Source: Gammaproteobacteria bacterium
Lineage (GTDB): Bacteria; Pseudomonadota; Gammaproteobacteria; JADZEE01
Assembly (NCBI GenBank): GCA_020850735.1
Contig: JADZEE010000136.1
Span: 90,117 to 154,116 of the forward strand
Length of the DNA stretch: 64,000 nucleotides
Direction: 5' to 3'
Under the pieces are notes generated by a model. The model did no database searches. It saw only the letters and a program-made list of their open reading frames with translations, and had not been told where the DNA came from. The stretch's first letter is position 1. Each line of letters begins with the position of its first letter. Positions 693-10,974 of the stretch are shown here, piece by piece. A program made the position numbers and the translations under genes.

Positions 693-1277
693 CTAGAGTA
701 CGGGCGCCGCGTGCAGTTGCGCGACCGCCGGGGTCCCGCTGCCGGCGAGCTTGCGGCCGGCGCTGAAGGCGGCGAGGTTCAGGTCCCGGAACGCGGCCGG
801 GCTCTGTGCGAGCAGGGCTTGTTCCAATACCGCCACCGGCAGGGAGCCGGCCAACGCCGCCCAGGCGCCGAGCGCGACCACGTTGGCGATCCGCTCGCTG
901 CCCAGATCGAGCGCGGTGCGGGTGAGCGCGAGCTCGTGCAGCACGTACGGTCCCACCGGTGGATCCGGGACCAGCCGCAGGTCGGCGAGCACCAGGGCGC
1001 CCTCGACCAGCAGCGGGACCGAGCGCGCGACGGCGTTCTGGTCCAGCAGCACCAGCGCGTCCAGCCGGGTGGCCAGCGGGTAGTCCACGGGCGCGTCCGC
1101 GACCACCAGATCCGCATGGCAGAATCCGCCGCGCGAGGTCGGTTCGTAGCCCTGCGACTGCGCGACATGGCGGCCGATCCCGCCGAACGCGGCACCCAGC
1201 ACGGTCGCGGCGAGGATCAGGCCCTGGCCGCCGGTACCGGCGAAGCGGATCTCGTGCCGGTACGGGAGACCGCTCAC
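693..1277 (-). CDS. korC: 2-oxoacid:ferredoxin oxidoreductase gamma subunit (KorC-like), GTG start
   Basis: Translation VSGLPYRHEIRFAGTGGQGLILAATVLG...; GTGA overlap with upstream gene stop. Confidence 0.85.
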   Translation of the reverse strand: MSGLPYRHEIRFAGTGGQGLILAATVLGAAFGGIGRHVAQSQGYEPTSRGGFCHADLVVADAPVDYPLATRLDALVLLDQNAVARSVPLLVEGALVLADLRLVPDPPVGPYVLHELALTRTALDLGSERIANVVALGAWAALAGSLPVAVLEQALLAQSPAAFRDLNLAAFSAGRKLAGSGTPAVAQLHAAPVL

Positions 1278-2128
1278 GATTGCCGGTTTCCCGTCGCGCC
1301 GCCCGGCTGCGCCGCGGCGACGACTTCGCGCCAGGCGGCGCCGTACTCGGCGCGATCGGTACGCGCCAGCAGCCCGGTCGGCAGGGTGTTGGGACGAAAC
1401 GGCGTCGCCACCGTGTCGCGGTAGGCATCGGGCCGCACGCCGCTCTTCTGCCGCAACACCATCTCGGGCGCGCTGCCCAGATCGTTCTTGCGGCCGTAGA
1501 CCTCGGTGCAGTCGGATATGACTTCGACGAAGGCGAAGCCGGGGTGCGCCAGGCCGTCGCGGAACAACTCCTTGAGCCTGGGCACGTGGTGCGTGACCTC
1601 GCGGGCGACGTAGCCGGCGCCGGCCGCGGTCGCGAGGGCGCAGGCGTCGAAGGCGGGCTCGACGTTGCCGCCGGGCGTGGTGGTCGTCAGCCGGCTCTCG
1701 GCGGTGGTCGGCGATACCTGTCCGCCGGTCATGCCGTAGACCTCGTTGTTCAGCAGCACGCAGGTCAGATCGAGGTTGCGCCGGCAGGCGTGGATGAGGT
1801 GATTGCCGCCGATCGCCAGGCAGTCGCCGTCGCCGGTGATGACGATGACCGTCAGATCGGGGCGGGCGAGCTTCAGGCCGGTGGCAAAGGCGAGCGGGCG
1901 GCCGTGGGTCACGTGGAAGGTACTGGCGTCGATGTAGGCGGACAGGCGCCCCGCGCAGCCGATCCCGGACACCACGGCGAGGCGGTCCCGGTCGATGCCG
2001 AGCTCGTGTACGGCCCACAGCAGGGCGCGCAGGGCGATGCCGTGGCCGCAGCCCGGACACAGGAAGTGCGGCATCAGCTCCTCGCGCAGGTAGCTGCGGA
2101 CGTCGAATGCGGACGCGCTATCGAGCAT
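1274..2128 (-). CDS. korB: 2-oxoacid:ferredoxin oxidoreductase beta subunit (TPP-binding, KorB-like)
   Basis: CPGCGHGIALRALLWAV...GIGCAGRLSAYI...HGRPLAFATGLKLARPDLTVIVITGDGDCLAIGGNHLIHACRRN: KorB/PorB TPP motif GDGD. Confidence 0.9.
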   Translation of the reverse strand: MLDSASAFDVRSYLREELMPHFLCPGCGHGIALRALLWAVHELGIDRDRLAVVSGIGCAGRLSAYIDASTFHVTHGRPLAFATGLKLARPDLTVIVITGDGDCLAIGGNHLIHACRRNLDLTCVLLNNEVYGMTGGQVSPTTAESRLTTTTPGGNVEPAFDACALATAAGAGYVAREVTHHVPRLKELFRDGLAHPGFAFVEVISDCTEVYGRKNDLGSAPEMVLRQKSGVRPDAYRDTVATPFRPNTLPTGLLARTDRAEYGAAWREVVAAAQPGGATGNRQS

Positions 2129-3278
2129 GGACCAGTTCCTCGATCCGGGTGGCGATGGTGGCCGGCGTGATCGGCTCGCCGTTGAGCCGGTTGATCCCCG
2201 TCACGCGCGGCCCGCTCCGGCACACGCGTTCGACCTCCAGGCGCAGCTGGCCGGCGTTGAGCTCCGGCACCAGCACTGCGCGGGCAGCGGCGGCGGCCAC
2301 CGCCAGTTGCCGTTCCGGAAACGGCCACAGCGTGATCGGCCGGAACAATCCGGCGCGGATGCCGCGTGCCCGCGCCTCGGTCACGGCGCGGCGCGCCGCG
2401 CGCGCACACACGCCGATCGCGACGACCAGCACTTCGGCGTCGTCCGCGTGCACCGTCTCGAAGGCGTCGACGGTATCGCGATGGTGGTCGATCTTGCCGA
2501 GCAGCCGGCCGAGCACGCGATCGGCCGTGTCCGGATCCTGGGTCGGGAAGCCGTGCTCGGCATGCACCAGACCGGTGGTATGACAGCGCAGCCCGTCACC
2601 GGGTCGCGGCATGGCCGGTACACCGTCAGCGCCGGCTGCGTAGGGAGCGAAGCCGGGCGTAGCCCCCGCCGCGCTGCGGCGATCGATCGTGACCAACTCG
2701 TGCGCAGCGGGGAGCAACACCGATTCGGACAGCTGCGCAATGGCCTGGTCGTAGAGCACGAGCACGGGAGTGCGACACAGCTCGGCCAGATTGAAGGCGC
2801 GCACGGTCTGCGCGAAGATCTCACCGACCGAGGCCGGCGCGAGCGCGATGGTCGGATAGTCCCCGTGGCTGCCCCAGCGTGCCTGCATGAGATCGCCCTG
2901 CGACGGGCGCGTCGGCATGCCGGTCGACGGACCGCCGCGCATCACGTCGACGATCACGCAGGGGATCTCGGCGCCGGCGGCGTAGCCGAGATTCTCCTGT
3001 TTCAGCGAAAAGCCCGGTCCGCTGGTCGCGGTCATCGCCTTGACGCCACCCATGGATGCACCGATGACCGCGGCCATCGACGCGATCTCGTCTTCCATCT
3101 GGATGAACACGCCGCCCACCTTCGGCAGCTCGCGCGCCAGCACTTCGGCGATCTCCGACGACGGCGTGATCGGGTAGCCGGCGAAAAATCGACAGCCCGC
3201 GGCAATCGCGCCGAGCGCGCAGGCACGGTTGCCCGACAGCAGCCGGGCCGGTGCCGGCTCGGCAACGACCGCGCTCAC
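2118..3278 (-). CDS. korA: 2-oxoacid:ferredoxin oxidoreductase alpha subunit (KorA-like), GTG start
   Basis: GYPITPSSEIAEVLARELPKVGGVFIQMEDEIASMAAVIGASMGGVKAMTATSGPGFSLKQENLGYA. Confidence 0.9.
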   Translation of the reverse strand: MSAVVAEPAPARLLSGNRACALGAIAAGCRFFAGYPITPSSEIAEVLARELPKVGGVFIQMEDEIASMAAVIGASMGGVKAMTATSGPGFSLKQENLGYAAGAEIPCVIVDVMRGGPSTGMPTRPSQGDLMQARWGSHGDYPTIALAPASVGEIFAQTVRAFNLAELCRTPVLVLYDQAIAQLSESVLLPAAHELVTIDRRSAAGATPGFAPYAAGADGVPAMPRPGDGLRCHTTGLVHAEHGFPTQDPDTADRVLGRLLGKIDHHRDTVDAFETVHADDAEVLVVAIGVCARAARRAVTEARARGIRAGLFRPITLWPFPERQLAVAAAAARAVLVPELNAGQLRLEVERVCRSGPRVTGINRLNGEPITPATIATRIEELVHAR

Positions 3279-4198
3279 GTGGTGGCCTCCACGTGCACGC
3301 GGATGGCGAAATCCGGGCACAGCCATTCGCACAGCCGGCAGCCGGTGCAGGCCGCCGGATCGCTGAGCTCGACGATACGGTCGGCGTTCAGACTCAGGCA
3401 GCGTTCCGGACACAGCTTCACGCAGATGTCGCAGCTCTTGCACCATGCCGGCGTGATTTCGACGCGGATGGCGGGCGGCGCCTGCGGCTGCGCGGCCGCT
3501 ACGGGCGCCGCCGGCTCAGGCCGGTGCCCGCGCACGCGTTCCTCCTCCACGTGGGCGCGGCCGCGGCGGAACGCCTCGAGGTTGACCGCAACCGTTTTCG
3601 GTGGCACGGCGGCCGCGATGACGGCTTCCCAGTCGGCGGCGGCGAAGTCGAGCGCGGTGGACAGTGCGCCCAGCAGCACCGTGTTGGCGGCGCGATCATT
3701 GCCCAGCGCGGCGGCCACACTGGTCGCGTCGAAAGCGTAGCCCTCGCCGACGTGTGCGAGCGCTTCGGGGAGTGACTCGCCGGAGTAGCGCAGCGACGCG
3801 CCGGGGCGGCGATCCAGACACGCGAACGGCGGCACGATGCGCCTGGTGTCGCAGATGAAGATGCCGTGCACCGGCTTCAGGTGGCCCAGCCAGCGCAGGC
3901 CCTCCGCCCACTCCAGCGCGACCAGTACGTCGGCCTCGCCGCGCGGGATGGTCGGCGACCAGACTTCGCGCCCGTAGCGCACGTGGCTGAAGACCGGGCC
4001 GCCGCGCTTGGCCATGCCGTGGACTTCGCTCTGTTTCACGGCGTCGCCGCGTTGCCGGCACAACTCCGCCAGCACCTTGGAGATCATGATGACACCCTGG
4101 CCGCCCACGCCGGCGATCAGCACGTTCACCGTTGCGCGCGCCGTGTCCGGGCGCGGCGCCGGCGCAGTCGCTTCGGCAAGGCCCGGTGCACTGTTCAC
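3275..4198 (-). CDS. Indolepyruvate ferredoxin oxidoreductase beta-like subunit fused to a C-terminal 2x[4Fe-4S] ferredoxin domain, GTG start
   Basis: VNVLIAGVGGQGVIMISKVLAELCRQRGDAVKQSEVHGMAKRGGPVFSHVRYG (IorB) followed by CKSCDICVKLCP and CTGCRLCEWLCP in one ORF. Confidence 0.88.
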   Translation of the reverse strand: MNSAPGLAEATAPAPRPDTARATVNVLIAGVGGQGVIMISKVLAELCRQRGDAVKQSEVHGMAKRGGPVFSHVRYGREVWSPTIPRGEADVLVALEWAEGLRWLGHLKPVHGIFICDTRRIVPPFACLDRRPGASLRYSGESLPEALAHVGEGYAFDATSVAAALGNDRAANTVLLGALSTALDFAAADWEAVIAAAVPPKTVAVNLEAFRRGRAHVEEERVRGHRPEPAAPVAAAQPQAPPAIRVEITPAWCKSCDICVKLCPERCLSLNADRIVELSDPAACTGCRLCEWLCPDFAIRVHVEATT

Positions 4199-6006
4199 TG
4201 GACCACCGGCACGATGCAGTCCATGGCGCAGACCTGCGCGCACAGGGTGCAGCCTATGCACGCCGAGGCATCGATGTGAACTTTGTGGCGGCCCTCGAAG
4301 CGGGCATCGCTCCAGGTCAGCGCGGGGCAACCGAGATTCATGCATGCCTGGCAGGCGTTACAGTTCGCTTCCTGTACGGCCAGGGCGGGGCCTTTGATCT
4401 TCACGGGGTCCAGCACGCACGGGCGGTTGGAAATGATCACGGCGACGCCCTTGTGGGTCGTGGCTTCGCGCAGCGACTGAAACATCGCCGCGACGTCGTA
4501 GGAATCGACCGTCCGCACCCAGTCCACGCCCAGCGCCCGCACCAGCGGTTCGTACTCCACGCGCCGGGTCGTTTCGCCGCGCAGCGTGCGGCCGGTGCCG
4601 GGGTGATCCTGGCCGCCGGTCATGGCCGTGATCTGGTTGTCGAGCAGTACCACGGTGATGTCGGCCTGGTTGTAGACGGCGTCGAGCAATGCGGGTATGC
4701 CGCTGTGCAGAAACGTGGAGTCACCGATGGTCGCGACGACCGGACGCGGCTCGCCGGCTTTGGCCATACCGATCGCGTTGCCGATGGACGAACCCATGGA
4801 TACGACGGTGTCGATTGCCCGCAACGGCGGCAGGCAGGCCAGGGTGTAGCAACCGATGTCGCCCGCGATGCGCGCGTCGACGCCGCGCAGCGCCATGTAA
4901 CTCGTCATGTGCGGGCAGCCGGCACACAGCACCGGTGGTCGCACCAGCGGTTCCGGAGCCCAGCCGGGCGCGGCGCCCGGAGCGTCCAGCACACCCGCCC
5001 GCGCGAGTCCGTCGCGCAGCAGCTCGGTGGACAGCTCGCCCACGCGCGGGAACCACGCCTTGCCCTCGACCGCGAGACCGAGCGCACGGACTTCCTTTTC
5101 GATGACCGGTTCGAGCTCCTCGACCACGAATACCCGCTCGACCGACTCGCAGAACGCCCGGATGGCGCCGGCCGGCAGCGGCCAGGTCGCGCCCAGCTTC
5201 AGCACGCTCGCCCGCGGCAGCACCTCCTTCACGTAGGCATAACAGGTGCCCGCGGTGATCACGCCGATCTTTGCGTCGCCGGGTTCGCGGCGCGTCAGCT
5301 CGGCGTCTTCCAGCCACGCCTGCAGCTTGCTTTCGCGTTCGATCATGAGCGGATGACGGGTCCGGGCGTTGGCGGGGATCATCACGTTCTTGCGCACGTC
5401 GTCGACGAAGCCGCGTGACTGCGGTTCGATCCGCGTGCCGGTGCGCACGGGGCTGCGCGTATGCGACAGGCGCGTGGTGCCGCGGACGATCACGGGTGTG
5501 TCGAAGCGCTCGGACAGCTCGAACGCGAGCCGGGTGTAGTGCAGCGCCTCCTGCGCGTCGGCCGGCTCGAGCACCGGGACACAGGCGAGCTGTGCGAACA
5601 GCCGCGTATCCTGCTCGTTCTGCGAGCTGTGTATGCCGGGATCGTCGCACACGACCAGCACCAGGCCGGCGTTGACGCCGATGTAGGTCTGCGACATGAG
5701 AGCGTCGGCCGCGACGTTGAGACCGACGTGCTTCATGGCCGCGAGCGCGCGCCGCCCGGCGAACGACGCGCCGATGGCCACGTCCAGCGCCACCTTTTCG
5801 TTGGTGGACCACTGCGCGTGCAGATCGTCGGCCGGATAACGGGCCAGGCTCTCGAGGATCTCGGTGCTCGGGGTGCCCGGATAGGCGGCGGCAACGCGCA
5901 CGCCTGCCTCCCAGGCGCCCCGCGCGATCGCCTCGTTGCCGGTCAAGGACCGCAAGTCCTCCCTGGCCCGACCGCGCGGGCGCAGTGTCTCCGGTTCCGC
6001 TTGCAT
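4195..6006 (-). CDS. iorA: Indolepyruvate ferredoxin oxidoreductase alpha subunit
   Basis: 603 aa; LTGNEAIARGAWEAGVRVAAAYPGTPSTEILE...CAGCPHMTSYMALRG...GDIGCYTL...; C-terminal CNACQACMNLGCP and CIGCTLCAQVC. Confidence 0.92.
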   Translation of the reverse strand: MQAEPETLRPRGRAREDLRSLTGNEAIARGAWEAGVRVAAAYPGTPSTEILESLARYPADDLHAQWSTNEKVALDVAIGASFAGRRALAAMKHVGLNVAADALMSQTYIGVNAGLVLVVCDDPGIHSSQNEQDTRLFAQLACVPVLEPADAQEALHYTRLAFELSERFDTPVIVRGTTRLSHTRSPVRTGTRIEPQSRGFVDDVRKNVMIPANARTRHPLMIERESKLQAWLEDAELTRREPGDAKIGVITAGTCYAYVKEVLPRASVLKLGATWPLPAGAIRAFCESVERVFVVEELEPVIEKEVRALGLAVEGKAWFPRVGELSTELLRDGLARAGVLDAPGAAPGWAPEPLVRPPVLCAGCPHMTSYMALRGVDARIAGDIGCYTLACLPPLRAIDTVVSMGSSIGNAIGMAKAGEPRPVVATIGDSTFLHSGIPALLDAVYNQADITVVLLDNQITAMTGGQDHPGTGRTLRGETTRRVEYEPLVRALGVDWVRTVDSYDVAAMFQSLREATTHKGVAVIISNRPCVLDPVKIKGPALAVQEANCNACQACMNLGCPALTWSDARFEGRHKVHIDASACIGCTLCAQVCAMDCIVPVVQ

Positions 6007-6069
6007 TCAGCCCCCGTCGCCTGCGTGAATCAACTGCGCGCAGGCGCCCGCTCAGGGATCCCGCACATG

Positions 6070-6118
6070 AATCGCGATCTTAGTCCGGGCGATCCCCGCG
6101 TCTTTGATGCAAATCAAA
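6070..6118 (-). promoter_or_regulatory. Candidate FNR/ANR-dependent promoter for iorA: palindrome TTGATGCAAATCAA at 6104-6117 and -10-like TAAGAT (minus strand, 6082-6077)
   Basis: Exact TTGAT-N4-ATCAA; centre at 6110.5 lies about 41 bp from a TSS expected near 6069-6070. Confidence 0.7.
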
Positions 6119-6230
6119 CGCTTCGGGCACCGGTGGCGCGCGCGGCACGGGCCCTGCCCGGGTCCGGATCGCCGGTCCCGGCGGTCGCTCCGACAGAACT
6201 CCCCGGGGCGGCCGGGCGACACGACCGGAC

Positions 6231-6260
6231 TTGCCGCCCGCAGGTCGGACCGGCTATAAT
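6231..6260 (+). promoter_or_regulatory. Sigma70-type promoter for tetR operon (TTGCCG-N18-TATAAT)
   Basis: -10 TATAAT at 6255-6260 exact consensus; -35 TTGCCG at 6231-6236. Confidence 0.65.
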
Positions 6261-6261
6261 T

Positions 6262-6296
6262 TCGAACGATGGTTCAAACTTTGAACGAAAATTCGA
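6262..6296. promoter_or_regulatory. 35-bp two-tier palindrome TCGAA-N5-GTTCAAA-C-TTTGAAC-N5-TTCGA, putative TetR operator overlapping the tetR start codon
   Basis: Perfect 7-1-7 inner palindrome with symmetric outer TCGAA/TTCGA arms. Confidence 0.7.
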
Positions 6297-6946
6297 CCAG
6301 ATTCGCCTCGGCTCGTGTACAGCGACGCAACGAGGAGCGCCGGCTGGGTATCCTCCGGGCGGCCTCGCGGGTCTTTCGGAGACGGGGCTTTATCGCCGCA
6401 GGTATGCGCGAGATCGCCGAAGAAGCCGGTATTTCACCGGGAAATCTCTACCATTATTTCAAGGGTAAGGATGCCATCCTGTATTTCTGCCAGGACCGTA
6501 CCCTGGTGCGCATGCAGGCCGCGCTCGACGCTGCGCCGGCGGCCGGCGGCACCGTCGCCGACCAGGTGGCAGCGGTGATCCGCGCGCACGTGCAGTGCAT
6601 GCTCGACGAGTTCGAGGGCGCGACTGCGCATCTGGAGCTGGACGCGCTGCCCGAAGCGCTGCGTCTGCCCCTGGTCGAGCGCCGCGACCGCTACGAGCGA
6701 TCCCTGCGAGCCCTCATCGCCGGCGGTGTCGCCAGCGGTGAGCTCCCGCCATGCGACGCCGCGCTCGTGACCCGGGCGATGCTGGGCGCCATCAACTGGA
6801 GCGCCCGCTGGTACCGTTCCGACGGCCCGCAGACGGTCGACGACGTCGCCGCCGGACTCGCGGATTATCTGGTGCGCGGCCTCGTCGCGCCGGCCAGGAT
6901 CACGGCCACGCCCGCGCGCGTGGCGCATTCAGGAGGTCGTTCATGA
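6269..6946 (+). CDS. TetR/AcrR family transcriptional regulator
   Basis: RNEERRLGILRAASRVFRRRGFIAAGMREIAEEAGISPGNLYHYFKGKDAILYF HTH. Confidence 0.93.
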   Translation: MVQTLNENSTRFASARVQRRNEERRLGILRAASRVFRRRGFIAAGMREIAEEAGISPGNLYHYFKGKDAILYFCQDRTLVRMQAALDAAPAAGGTVADQVAAVIRAHVQCMLDEFEGATAHLELDALPEALRLPLVERRDRYERSLRALIAGGVASGELPPCDAALVTRAMLGAINWSARWYRSDGPQTVDDVAAGLADYLVRGLVAPARITATPARVAHSGGRS

Positions 6947-7464
6947 GTGAATCCACGTCCGCGGCGCCGTCGCGCAGCAATGTCCACAGGGTGCTGCGGG
7001 TCAACGGCGAAGACCTGCCGGTATCGTTCGCGCCCTACAAGACCCTGCTCGAGGTTCTGCGCGAAGACCTCGCGCTGACCGGCACCAAGCACGGCTGCGA
7101 GCTCGGCGAATGCGGTGCCTGTGCGGTGCTGGTCGATGGTCAGCCCCTGCTCGCCTGCCTGCTGCTGGCGATCGAGTGCGAGGGCCGCGACATCGCCACC
7201 GTGGAGGGTCTTGCCGACGGTCCCGATCTGCACCCGCTGCAGACAGCCTTCGCCGATCTCGGCGGCGCGCAGTGCGGTTACTGCACACCCGGCATCCTCA
7301 TGACCGCCAAGGCGCTGCTCGACGACGATCCGGATCCGGACCGCGAGCGCATACGTGAAGCGCTGTCGGGGAATCTGTGCCGCTGCACCGGCTACCAGCA
7401 GATCTTCGAGTCGGTCGAACGGGCGGCACAGGAGCTGCGCGAGACCGGGGAGGCAGGCCGATGA
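6943..7464 (+). CDS. Xanthine dehydrogenase-family [2Fe-2S] subunit (4-hydroxybenzoyl-CoA reductase gamma-like)
   Basis: [20 protein letters not shown] and [16 protein letters not shown]...[16 protein letters not shown] overlap with tetR. Confidence 0.92.
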
Positions 7465-9899
7465 GCAAGCGACGTCTGGAAGTGATCGGCCAGCCGCGCC
7501 GGCGGGTCGACGGCCCGGCCAAGGTCACCGGTCGCACGCAGTTCGCCGACGATCTCGTGCTGCCGCGCATGTTGCACTGCAAGCTGCTGCGCTCACACCT
7601 GCCGCACGCCGAGATCGTGTCGATCGACGTCGGCCGAGCCGCTGCCCACCCCGGCGTGCACCGGGTGCTGACGGGTGCGGATTTCCCGATCACCTTCGGC
7701 ATCATGCCGGTCAGCCAGGACGAGCACGCCCTGTGTCCGCAGCGCGTGCGCTACGTCGGCGATCCGGTCGCCGCGGTCATCGCCCGCGACGAGCAAACGG
7801 CCACCGAGGCGCTCGATCTCATCGCGGTCGAGTACCGGCCGCTGCCGACCATCGCCTCGCCCGAGGAGGCGCTCGCCAATCCCGACGCGCGCATCCACGA
7901 CTACAACCCGCACGGTAACGTGCATCGCCAGCTCGCGTTCGAGTTTGGTGACATCGAGGAAGCGCTCGCGGGCTCGGATCACGTCTTCGAGGACGTGTTT
8001 TTCTTCGAGGGCAACACCCACCTGCCGCTGGAGCAGCACGCGGCGCTGGCGGCGGTCGACCCGGACGGCAAGCTGACGCTCTGGTCGAGCACGCAGTGTC
8101 CGCACTACGTGCATCGCGCGCTCGCAAAGGTGCTGGAGATGCCCGCCGCGCACATTCGCGTCATCGCCTGCCCGAACGGTGGCGGTTTCGGCGGCAAGAC
8201 CGACATCTGCAATCACGAGATGGTGGTCTGCAAGGCGGCGCGCCTGCTCGGCCGGCCGGTGAAGATCTGCCTGACGCGCGAGGAAGTGTTCTACCTGCAT
8301 CGGGGCCGCCACCCGGTGCTGATGAAGTTCCGCACCGGCGTGACCCGGGACGGCCGGCTGACCGGCACGCACCTGCAGACCCTGGTCGACGGTGGCGCCT
8401 ACGGTTCCTACGGTGCCGCGAGCACCATCTACACCGGTGTGCTGACCCCGGTGACCTACGAGTTGCCCCGCTTCAAGTTCGAGGCGGTGCGGACCTTCAC
8501 CAACAAGCCGGCGTGCGGTCCCAAGCGCGGCCACGGCACCGTGCAGCCACGCTTCGGCCAGGAGATCCAGCTCGACAAGATCGCCGACAAGCTCGGCATG
8601 GATCCGGCCGAGCTGCGCCTCGGCATCGTCGCCAAACCGAATTCGCTCACCGCGAGCTGGATCCGGATCGGCACCATTGGTCTGGCCGAGTGCATCCGTG
8701 AAGTCACGCGCATGTCGGACTGGACTGGCCGCTACCGCAAGCTGCCCGAAGGACGCGGGATCGGTCTGGCCTGTTCGACCTACATGTGCGGTGCGGGCCT
8801 GCCGATCTACTGGAACAAGATGCCGCACTCGGGCGTGCAGGTGCTGCTCGACCGCAGCGGCCAGGTCACCGTGTATTGCGGTGCCACCGAAGTCGGTCAG
8901 GGCTCGGACGACGTGCTGGTTGCCTGCGTCGCCGAGGTCCTGGGCATCAACCCGTACGACGTGCGCTGCGTTACCGGCGATACCGGCATCACGCCGATCG
9001 ATCTCGGTTCGTACTCGAGCCGCGTCACCGTGATGATGGGCAACGCCGCCATCCAGGCGGCGGAGCGAGCCCGCGAGTTGATCGCCGACGCCGTCGCCGA
9101 CGCCCTGGAAGTGCCGCCCGATCTGCTGGTGTTCGCCGGCGGCCAGGTGTTCGTGTCCGAAGACCCGCAACGCGCCATGAGCTTTCGCGAAGCGGTCGTG
9201 TGCGCCGAGGAAAAGCATGGCACGCTCGGTGCGACCGGCTCCTACGCGCCGCCGAGGATCCCGGCGAAGTACAAGGGGGCGGGCGCCGGTCCGTCGCCCG
9301 CGTATTCCTACACGGCATGCGTCGTCGAGGTCGACGTGGACGTGAACACGGGCTGGATCACCGTGCCCAAGGTCTGGATCGCGCACGACATCGGCCAGAC
9401 CATGAATCCGGTGCTCGCGCGCGGCCAGGTCGAGGGCAGCGTATACATGGGGCTGGGCGAGGCGCTGATGGAGGAACAGGTTTTCCGCCGGCTGCCGCCC
9501 AAGCTCTCCGGTGCCCTGGTCCACAAGATCCCGTCGCTGCTCGAATACAAGAGCCTCACCTCGCTGGATATGCCGCAGGTCGAGAGCGTACTGCTCGGGA
9601 CCCCCGATCCGAACTGCCCCTTCGGTGCCAAGGAAGTCGGCCAGGGGCCGCTGCTTCCGGTCATGCCCGCCGTCGCCAACGCCGTCTATGACGCGGTCGG
9701 TGTGCGCATCGACGAGGTGCCCATCACGCCCGACAAGATCCTGCGCGCGCTCGAGCTCAAGGCGAAGGGCAAGGATCCGCGCGTCGGACCGGCAGGATTC
9801 CCCGACGTACCCTACCCGGAGCCGCTGTTCGTGCTGCCGCCGTGGGAGGGTGGCGACGGCGACGCTGCCGAACATCCGCGCCGCAAGTCCGTCGCATGA
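7461..9899 (+). CDS. Molybdopterin-binding large subunit, xanthine dehydrogenase family (4-hydroxybenzoyl-CoA reductase alpha-like)
   Basis: GRTQFADDLVLPRMLHCKLLRS...PNGGGFGGKTDICNHEMVVCKAARLLGRPVKICLTREEVFYLHRGRHPVLMKFRTGV...GAKEVGQGPLLP. Confidence 0.92.
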   Translation: MSKRRLEVIGQPRRRVDGPAKVTGRTQFADDLVLPRMLHCKLLRSHLPHAEIVSIDVGRAAAHPGVHRVLTGADFPITFGIMPVSQDEHALCPQRVRYVGDPVAAVIARDEQTATEALDLIAVEYRPLPTIASPEEALANPDARIHDYNPHGNVHRQLAFEFGDIEEALAGSDHVFEDVFFFEGNTHLPLEQHAALAAVDPDGKLTLWSSTQCPHYVHRALAKVLEMPAAHIRVIACPNGGGFGGKTDICNHEMVVCKAARLLGRPVKICLTREEVFYLHRGRHPVLMKFRTGVTRDGRLTGTHLQTLVDGGAYGSYGAASTIYTGVLTPVTYELPRFKFEAVRTFTNKPACGPKRGHGTVQPRFGQEIQLDKIADKLGMDPAELRLGIVAKPNSLTASWIRIGTIGLAECIREVTRMSDWTGRYRKLPEGRGIGLACSTYMCGAGLPIYWNKMPHSGVQVLLDRSGQVTVYCGATEVGQGSDDVLVACVAEVLGINPYDVRCVTGDTGITPIDLGSYSSRVTVMMGNAAIQAAERARELIADAVADALEVPPDLLVFAGGQVFVSEDPQRAMSFREAVVCAEEKHGTLGATGSYAPPRIPAKYKGAGAGPSPAYSYTACVVEVDVDVNTGWITVPKVWIAHDIGQTMNPVLARGQVEGSVYMGLGEALMEEQVFRRLPPKLSGALVHKIPSLLEYKSLTSLDMPQVESVLLGTPDPNCPFGAKEVGQGPLLPVMPAVANAVYDAVGVRIDEVPITPDKILRALELKAKGKDPRVGPAGFPDVPYPEPLFVLPPWEGGDGDAAEHPRRKSVA

Positions 9900-9954
9900 A
9901 CCTGCCGGCAATCGCAATGAACGATGCGGGCCACGGCCCGAAGGCGACGCAACC

Positions 9955-10974
9955 ATGATGAGACTGCCCTGGTTCCACCATTACACTCCGCGCACCGTGG
10001 CGGAGACCGCGAACATCCTCGCCGGCGAAGGCCCGAGCGCCATGCTGATCGCCGGTGGCACCGATCTGCTGCCGAACATGAAACGCCGCCAGCAAATGCC
10101 GCAGACGCTGGTCAGCCTGCGCGCAGTGGACGAGCTCAAGCGCCTGAGCAACGGCAGCGGGCTCACGCTCGGCGCCGGTCTCACCCTGACCGAAGTCGTG
10201 CGCGCCGACGCGGTGCGCAATCATTACCGCGGCCTGTGGCAGGCGGCCCACCAGGTGGCCAGCCCGCACCTGCGCAATATGGGTACACTCGGCGGCAATA
10301 TCTGTCTGGACACGCGCTGCCACTATTACGATCAGAATTACGAGTGGCGCCGGGCCATCGACTTCTGCATGAAGAAAGACGGCGTCACCTGCTGGGTCGC
10401 CACGGCCAGCCGGCGCTGCCTGGCGGTGTCCTCGACCGATACCGCGCCGGCACTGATCGCGCTCGATGCGAAAGTGCGGCTCGTTTCCAGCCGCGGCGAA
10501 CGCGAGCTCGCTCTCGCCGAGCTCTACAACAACGATGGCATCGATTATCTCACCCGCTGCGCCGACGAGGTGCTCACCGCGGTGACGCTGCCCGACAGAC
10601 GCGGCTGGCGCAGCTGTTACTGGAAGCTGCGCCGGCGCGGTTCTTTCGATTTCCCGGTGCTCGGTGTCGCCGCGGCCGCGAAGCTGGCCGCCGACGGCAC
10701 CGTCGAGGACGCACGTCTGGTGCTCGGCGCGGTCGCCTCGCAGCCGCTGCTGAGCGACGCCGCCGGCCGCCTGGCCGGTCGCAGGCTCGACGACGAAGCG
10801 ATCGCCGCGGCGGGCGCCAGAGCCGCGGCGATCGCCAAGCCCATGGATAACGCCGACTTCACCCTGTCCTGGCGCAAGAAGGTCGTCGCCGAGCTCGTTG
10901 GCTATGCGCTGCGGGAGATCCGTGGCGATGACATGCGCGCCCAGCGCATGAAAATCGCGCACCAGGCGCTGTGA
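9955..10974 (+). CDS. FAD-binding subunit, xanthine dehydrogenase family with additional 4-Cys loop (4-hydroxybenzoyl-CoA reductase beta-like)
   Basis: LIAGGTDLLPNMKRR...NMGTLGGNICLDTRCHYYDQNYEWRRAIDFCMKKDGVTCWVATASRRCLAVSSTDTAPALIAL. Confidence 0.92.
   Translation: MMRLPWFHHYTPRTVAETANILAGEGPSAMLIAGGTDLLPNMKRRQQMPQTLVSLRAVDELKRLSNGSGLTLGAGLTLTEVVRADAVRNHYRGLWQAAHQVASPHLRNMGTLGGNICLDTRCHYYDQNYEWRRAIDFCMKKDGVTCWVATASRRCLAVSSTDTAPALIALDAKVRLVSSRGERELALAELYNNDGIDYLTRCADEVLTAVTLPDRRGWRSCYWKLRRRGSFDFPVLGVAAAAKLAADGTVEDARLVLGAVASQPLLSDAAGRLAGRRLDDEAIAAAGARAAAIAKPMDNADFTLSWRKKVVAELVGYALREIRGDDMRAQRMKIAHQAL

Follow-up and report, generated by a model that had tools for sequence, protein, structure and literature searches.

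We examined a 64-kb stretch of DNA, here called the window, in which a predicted operon for two ferredoxin oxidoreductases lies on the minus strand, beginning with iorA and running leftwards. The iorA gene (4195..6006, -) encodes the alpha subunit of indolepyruvate ferredoxin oxidoreductase and scores above the cut-off of the assigned model (TIGR03336, 697 bits, cut-off 651). It is followed by iorB (3275..4210, -), which carries a C-terminal ferredoxin-type domain. The top IorB model gives 183 bits against a cut-off of 237, and judged by its sequence the product is a clear IorB homologue that falls short of an assigned equivalog. Next come korA (2118..3278, -), encoding a 2-oxoacid:acceptor oxidoreductase alpha subunit (NF006412, 552 bits, cut-off 411), and korB (1274..2128, -), encoding a 2-oxoacid ferredoxin oxidoreductase beta subunit (295 bits, under the equivalog cut-off of 364). 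The last gene, korC (693..1277, -), was named as a gamma subunit from its position and its similarity to orthologous gamma genes. The start codons of iorB, korA and korC are uncertain. This order, iorA, iorB-ferredoxin, korA, korB, korC, is kept in all 14 of the other close loci that have enough flanking DNA (L021, L023-L028, L038 and L162-L167), which belong to alpha- and beta/gammaproteobacteria and a SAR324 MAG.

Divergent from iorA and 262 bp away from it is a gene for a TetR-family regulator (6269-6946). Its own sigma-70 promoter, TTGCCG-18-TATAAT, lies at 6231-6260, and GTTCAAACTTTGAAC (6272-6286), a near-perfect palindrome, spans its start region. This arrangement suggests autoregulation, and the gene perhaps gives a leaderless transcript or uses a later start codon. 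Behind tetR, and likewise divergent to ior-kor, are molybdenum hydroxylase genes (6943-10974, +) related to those of 4-hydroxybenzoyl-CoA reductase, with the alpha subunit at 787 bits, under the cut-off of 995.

Upstream of iorA lies the sequence TTTGATGCAAATCAAA (6103..6118), a palindromic FNR/ANR-type box with no strand of its own, whose core TTGATGCAAATCAA occupies 6104-6117 with its centre at 6110.5, 104.5 bp from the iorA start at 6006. A sequence-only reading of this DNA had reported a perfect TTGAT-N4-ATCAA here together with a minus-strand TAAGAT at 6082-6077, and both are present as described: the forward-strand letters at 6077-6082 are ATCTTA. The box is the sole exact TTGAT-N4-ATCAA in the window, and none arose in 100 dinucleotide shuffles of the window. 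A CRP site was considered as the identity of the box and ruled out, as the TGTGA/TCACA half-sites are absent.

The hexamer TAAGAT (6077..6082, -) agrees with the -10 consensus at four of six positions and lies at class II spacing from the box, making it the candidate -10 element of an ior promoter. Counting TAAGAT as -12 to -7 puts the predicted start at about 6070 and the box centre at -40.5, or at -41.5 if transcription begins one base further. Escherichia coli FNR sites centred at -40.5 to -42.5 activate focA-pflB, yfiD, dmsA, narG and other promoters (PMC3688515). No -35 hexamer is found at spacers of 16-18 bp, where the letters are AAGACG, AAAGAC and CAAAGA. Similarly, a sigma-70 scan of 5950-6340 returned no minus-strand promoter, the divergent tetR promoter being the sole sigma-70-like match.

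Searches at the level of the family and the order returned no genome but the window's own, which stands alone in its order among the genomes searched, and we therefore examined conservation of the box in more distant orthologues. The close set comprised 16 IorA orthologues with upstream DNA, the window included, the others being 64-73% identical. An exact box precedes iorA in the window, in L021 (a betaproteobacterial MAG) and in L038 (an alphaproteobacterial MAG), and a box with one mismatch does so in L023, L026 and L114. Leaving the window aside, five of the 15 close orthologues thus have a box within one mismatch, against 0.29 expected, a count reached in none of 2000 resamplings. A -10 sequence at the class II offset accompanies the iorA upstream region in L021, L038 and L162 (TACGAT, TAGGTT and TATTAT). 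About six of the 16 close orthologues have no convincing box upstream of iorA, and therefore the control is not universal. Among some 76 distant IorA relatives there were no exact boxes and two within one mismatch.

The recurrence of the box bears on the role of the neighbouring regulator. With its divergent position 262 bp from iorA, its strong promoter and its palindrome, the TetR-family protein might be thought to rule the operon, leaving the FNR-like box a minor part. However, GTTCAAACTTTGAAC covers the start region of tetR itself, roughly 170 bp away from the box, and we saw no further copy of it at the ior promoter. Furthermore, we detected no TetR homologue in the orthologous loci but did see the box again among them. 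We consider it very improbable that the TetR-family protein is the main regulator of ior-kor.

To see the box in its genomic setting, we carried out the genome-wide FNR motif scan that the sequence-only reading had proposed. The source genome is a MAG of 4.99 Mb in 170 contigs, 95% complete with an estimated contamination of 5.9%. A pattern search found 13 exact boxes in the 4.99 Mb, where Markov models of order 0-3, built on 151 kb of the genome, predict 0.2-0.9 by chance. Ten of these lie outside called genes. Their targets include a bacteriohemerythrin, a small HIG_1_N membrane protein, an XylR/V4R-type sigma-54 activator, a cytochrome c, a CoxB-like oxidase operon, the start of a type II DMSO-reductase-family alpha subunit gene and iorA. 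Another exact box (L170 13049; G000:C51:67048), accompanied by TACCAT at the class II distance, stands 93 bp upstream of the gene for benzoyl-CoA reductase subunit C (bcrC; TIGR02263, 636 bits), which is followed by more bcr-like genes. Two further boxed loci, near pqqD and near a flavocytochrome c gene, are less clear. Where the direction of the target gene was clear, as judged from the nearest gene downstream, we searched offsets of 19-45 below the box centre with a -10 matrix approximated from published E. coli frequencies. The best -10 fell at offset 28-31 in eight of nine orientable sites (p 1.8e-6). The scan thus revealed a low-oxygen regulon that is coherent and shows class II spacing.

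The remaining three exact boxes lie inside genes, namely rplN, coq7 and a hydantoinase B gene (L004, L010 and L012, 1501-1514). Their presence indicates that some exact sites in this genome are accidental, and the box before iorA could on that ground be read as a functionless chance match. None of the three, which serve as internal negative controls, has a class II -10, whereas TTTGATGCAAATCAAA is intergenic, is accompanied by a candidate -10 at the class II distance and recurs before iorA in other genomes. A chance match is accordingly the least probable of the readings that we weighed, and we give it almost no credence.

A lack of any FNR-family regulator in the genome would have counted against the proposed control. 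Instead, six CRP/FNR-family proteins score above the Pfam cut-off, and two of them are FNR-type, encoded on G000:C160 (L171) and G000:C1 (L172). The C160 protein has the cysteine motifs SCDECSLNRFC and MVCMLPW, and the C1 protein has TCPDCRLRDLC and SVCELPY. In both, all four [4Fe-4S] cluster cysteines align with those of solved FNR (5CVR and variants), and both share the recognition helix ETVSR. Against the NCBIfam Fnr model the two score 225 and 207 bits, slightly under the cut-off of 228. Their genes are on contigs other than that of the window, with similar G+C content. Each is adjoined by genes that by inspection resemble a sensor kinase and a FixJ-type response regulator, and a FixI-like copper ATPase gene, also named by inspection, is near the C160 gene. 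The pairing of fnr-type genes with kinase- and FixJ-like genes hints at a FixLJ-FNR oxygen cascade.

A third member of the family, encoded on G000:C92, is DNR-like, with solved DNR as its top match (E 6.7e-43) and the recognition helix ETFSR. This helix is of the same type as that of the FNR-type proteins, and the TTGAT-N4-ATCAA core alone does not tell FNR sites from DNR sites. The box might then be read mainly by the DNR-like protein, in which case the operon would answer to nitric oxide or denitrification and not to oxygen directly. Yet the other exact boxes precede aromatic-degradation, hemerythrin and oxidase genes and not denitrification genes alone, and two FNR-type proteins are available in the genome. 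We regard a primary role for the DNR-like protein as unlikely.

We consider it highly probable, from these sequence features, that TTTGATGCAAATCAAA serves as operator for an oxygen-sensing FNR/ANR-type class II activator that drives ior-kor when oxygen is absent. In the proposed mechanism, an FNR-type dimer carrying its [4Fe-4S] cluster would bind 6103-6118 without oxygen. Sitting at the predicted class II position, where the -35 element is missing, the bound dimer would recruit RNA polymerase to the TAAGAT -10, and iorA-iorB-korA-korB-korC would be transcribed leftwards as one unit. With oxygen the cluster would be lost and the promoter would be nearly off. The box stands at about the standard distance from the predicted start, FNR proteins are encoded in the genome and similar sites precede other low-oxygen genes, so that loss of oxygen very probably turns the operon on. 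The oxygen-controlled, FNR/ANR-dependent expression put forward in the sequence-only reading is in this way supported by the FNR-type proteins, the low-oxygen regulon and the recurrence of the box.

The predicted arrangement is that of E. coli class II FNR promoters such as narG, dmsA, focA-pflB and yfiD, which like ior combine a TTGAT-N4-ATCAA-type site with no good -35 and a [4Fe-4S] regulator. The target genes differ from ior-kor, and the ior start is predicted from sequence. A further parallel is the bzd PN promoter of Azoarcus sp. CIB, where a site for the FNR-family protein AcpR at -41.5 overlaps the -35 and precedes genes for anaerobic benzoate degradation (PMC6678401). As with AcpR at PN, an exact box in the source genome also precedes bcrCBAD. 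PN differs in having a specific repressor, BzdR, where the present locus has a divergent tetR and ior-kor as the target. The regulatory mechanism itself is textbook, and ior-kor is a well-supported, ordinary example of it; we found no prior report of FNR control of ior-kor in the open-access literature. What the boxes provide is a concrete FNR regulon for an aromatic-degrading bacterium whose order had no other member among the genomes searched.

The predicted shared control of bcr and ior-kor raises the matter of the operon's function. Twelve of the 15 ior-kor genomes, the source genome among them, have a class I benzoyl-CoA reductase that scores above the TIGR02263 cut-off, as do nine of the 369 genomes of a class-wide sample. 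Within that sample, three of the four ior-kor genomes have the reductase (Fisher p 4e-5, or 1e-3 without the source genome). The predicted shared control and this co-occurrence together tie the conserved ior-kor operon to anaerobic aromatic metabolism. In L166 the operon is adjoined by a phenylacetate-CoA ligase gene (TIGR02155, 699 bits) and by a three-gene molybdoenzyme set that is PadBCD-like by inspection only, and in L021 by a phenylacetate-CoA ligase gene and an ABC transporter.

Characterized relatives point in the same direction. IorAB of Aromatoleum aromaticum EbN1, an enzyme of the same type, has been described as forming phenylacetyl-CoA from phenylpyruvate (PMC9765128); in the present operon iorB is fused to a ferredoxin-type domain and is followed by korABC. 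KorAB of Thauera aromatica is described, in work cited in PMC9973337, as a 2-oxoacid:ferredoxin oxidoreductase that feeds electrons to benzoyl-CoA reductase. In contrast to the Thauera case, kor is here joined to ior and is on another contig than bcr, and the bcr cluster of the source genome has a korAB-like pair of its own. Because the operon is conserved among other proteobacteria and class I benzoyl-CoA reductase occurs in 12 of the 15 genomes that have it, and given the neighbouring genes in L166 and L021 and the roles of Aromatoleum IorAB and Thauera KorAB, we infer that ior-kor probably serves anaerobic aromatic metabolism. A more specific proposal, which we offer tentatively and hold to be possible rather than probable, is that the FNR-controlled operon represents a conserved and hitherto unassigned part of the class I benzoyl-CoA pathway in proteobacteria. 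It might form aryl-CoA from aryl 2-oxoacids, re-reduce ferredoxin for benzoyl-CoA reductase, or both, and be co-induced with this reductase through a common oxygen switch.

We also used PadG to probe the idea that ior-kor replaces the phenylglyoxylate dehydrogenase PadEFGHI. No PadG above cut-off was found in any of the 15 ior-kor genomes, and strong relatives below the cut-off occur in several of them, the source genome included. The contig that holds the window also has a second 2-oxoacid oxidoreductase cluster (L173 5620-9876; G000:C137), which encodes a PadG-like subunit (C137:35849) that scores 301 bits against a cut-off of 700.
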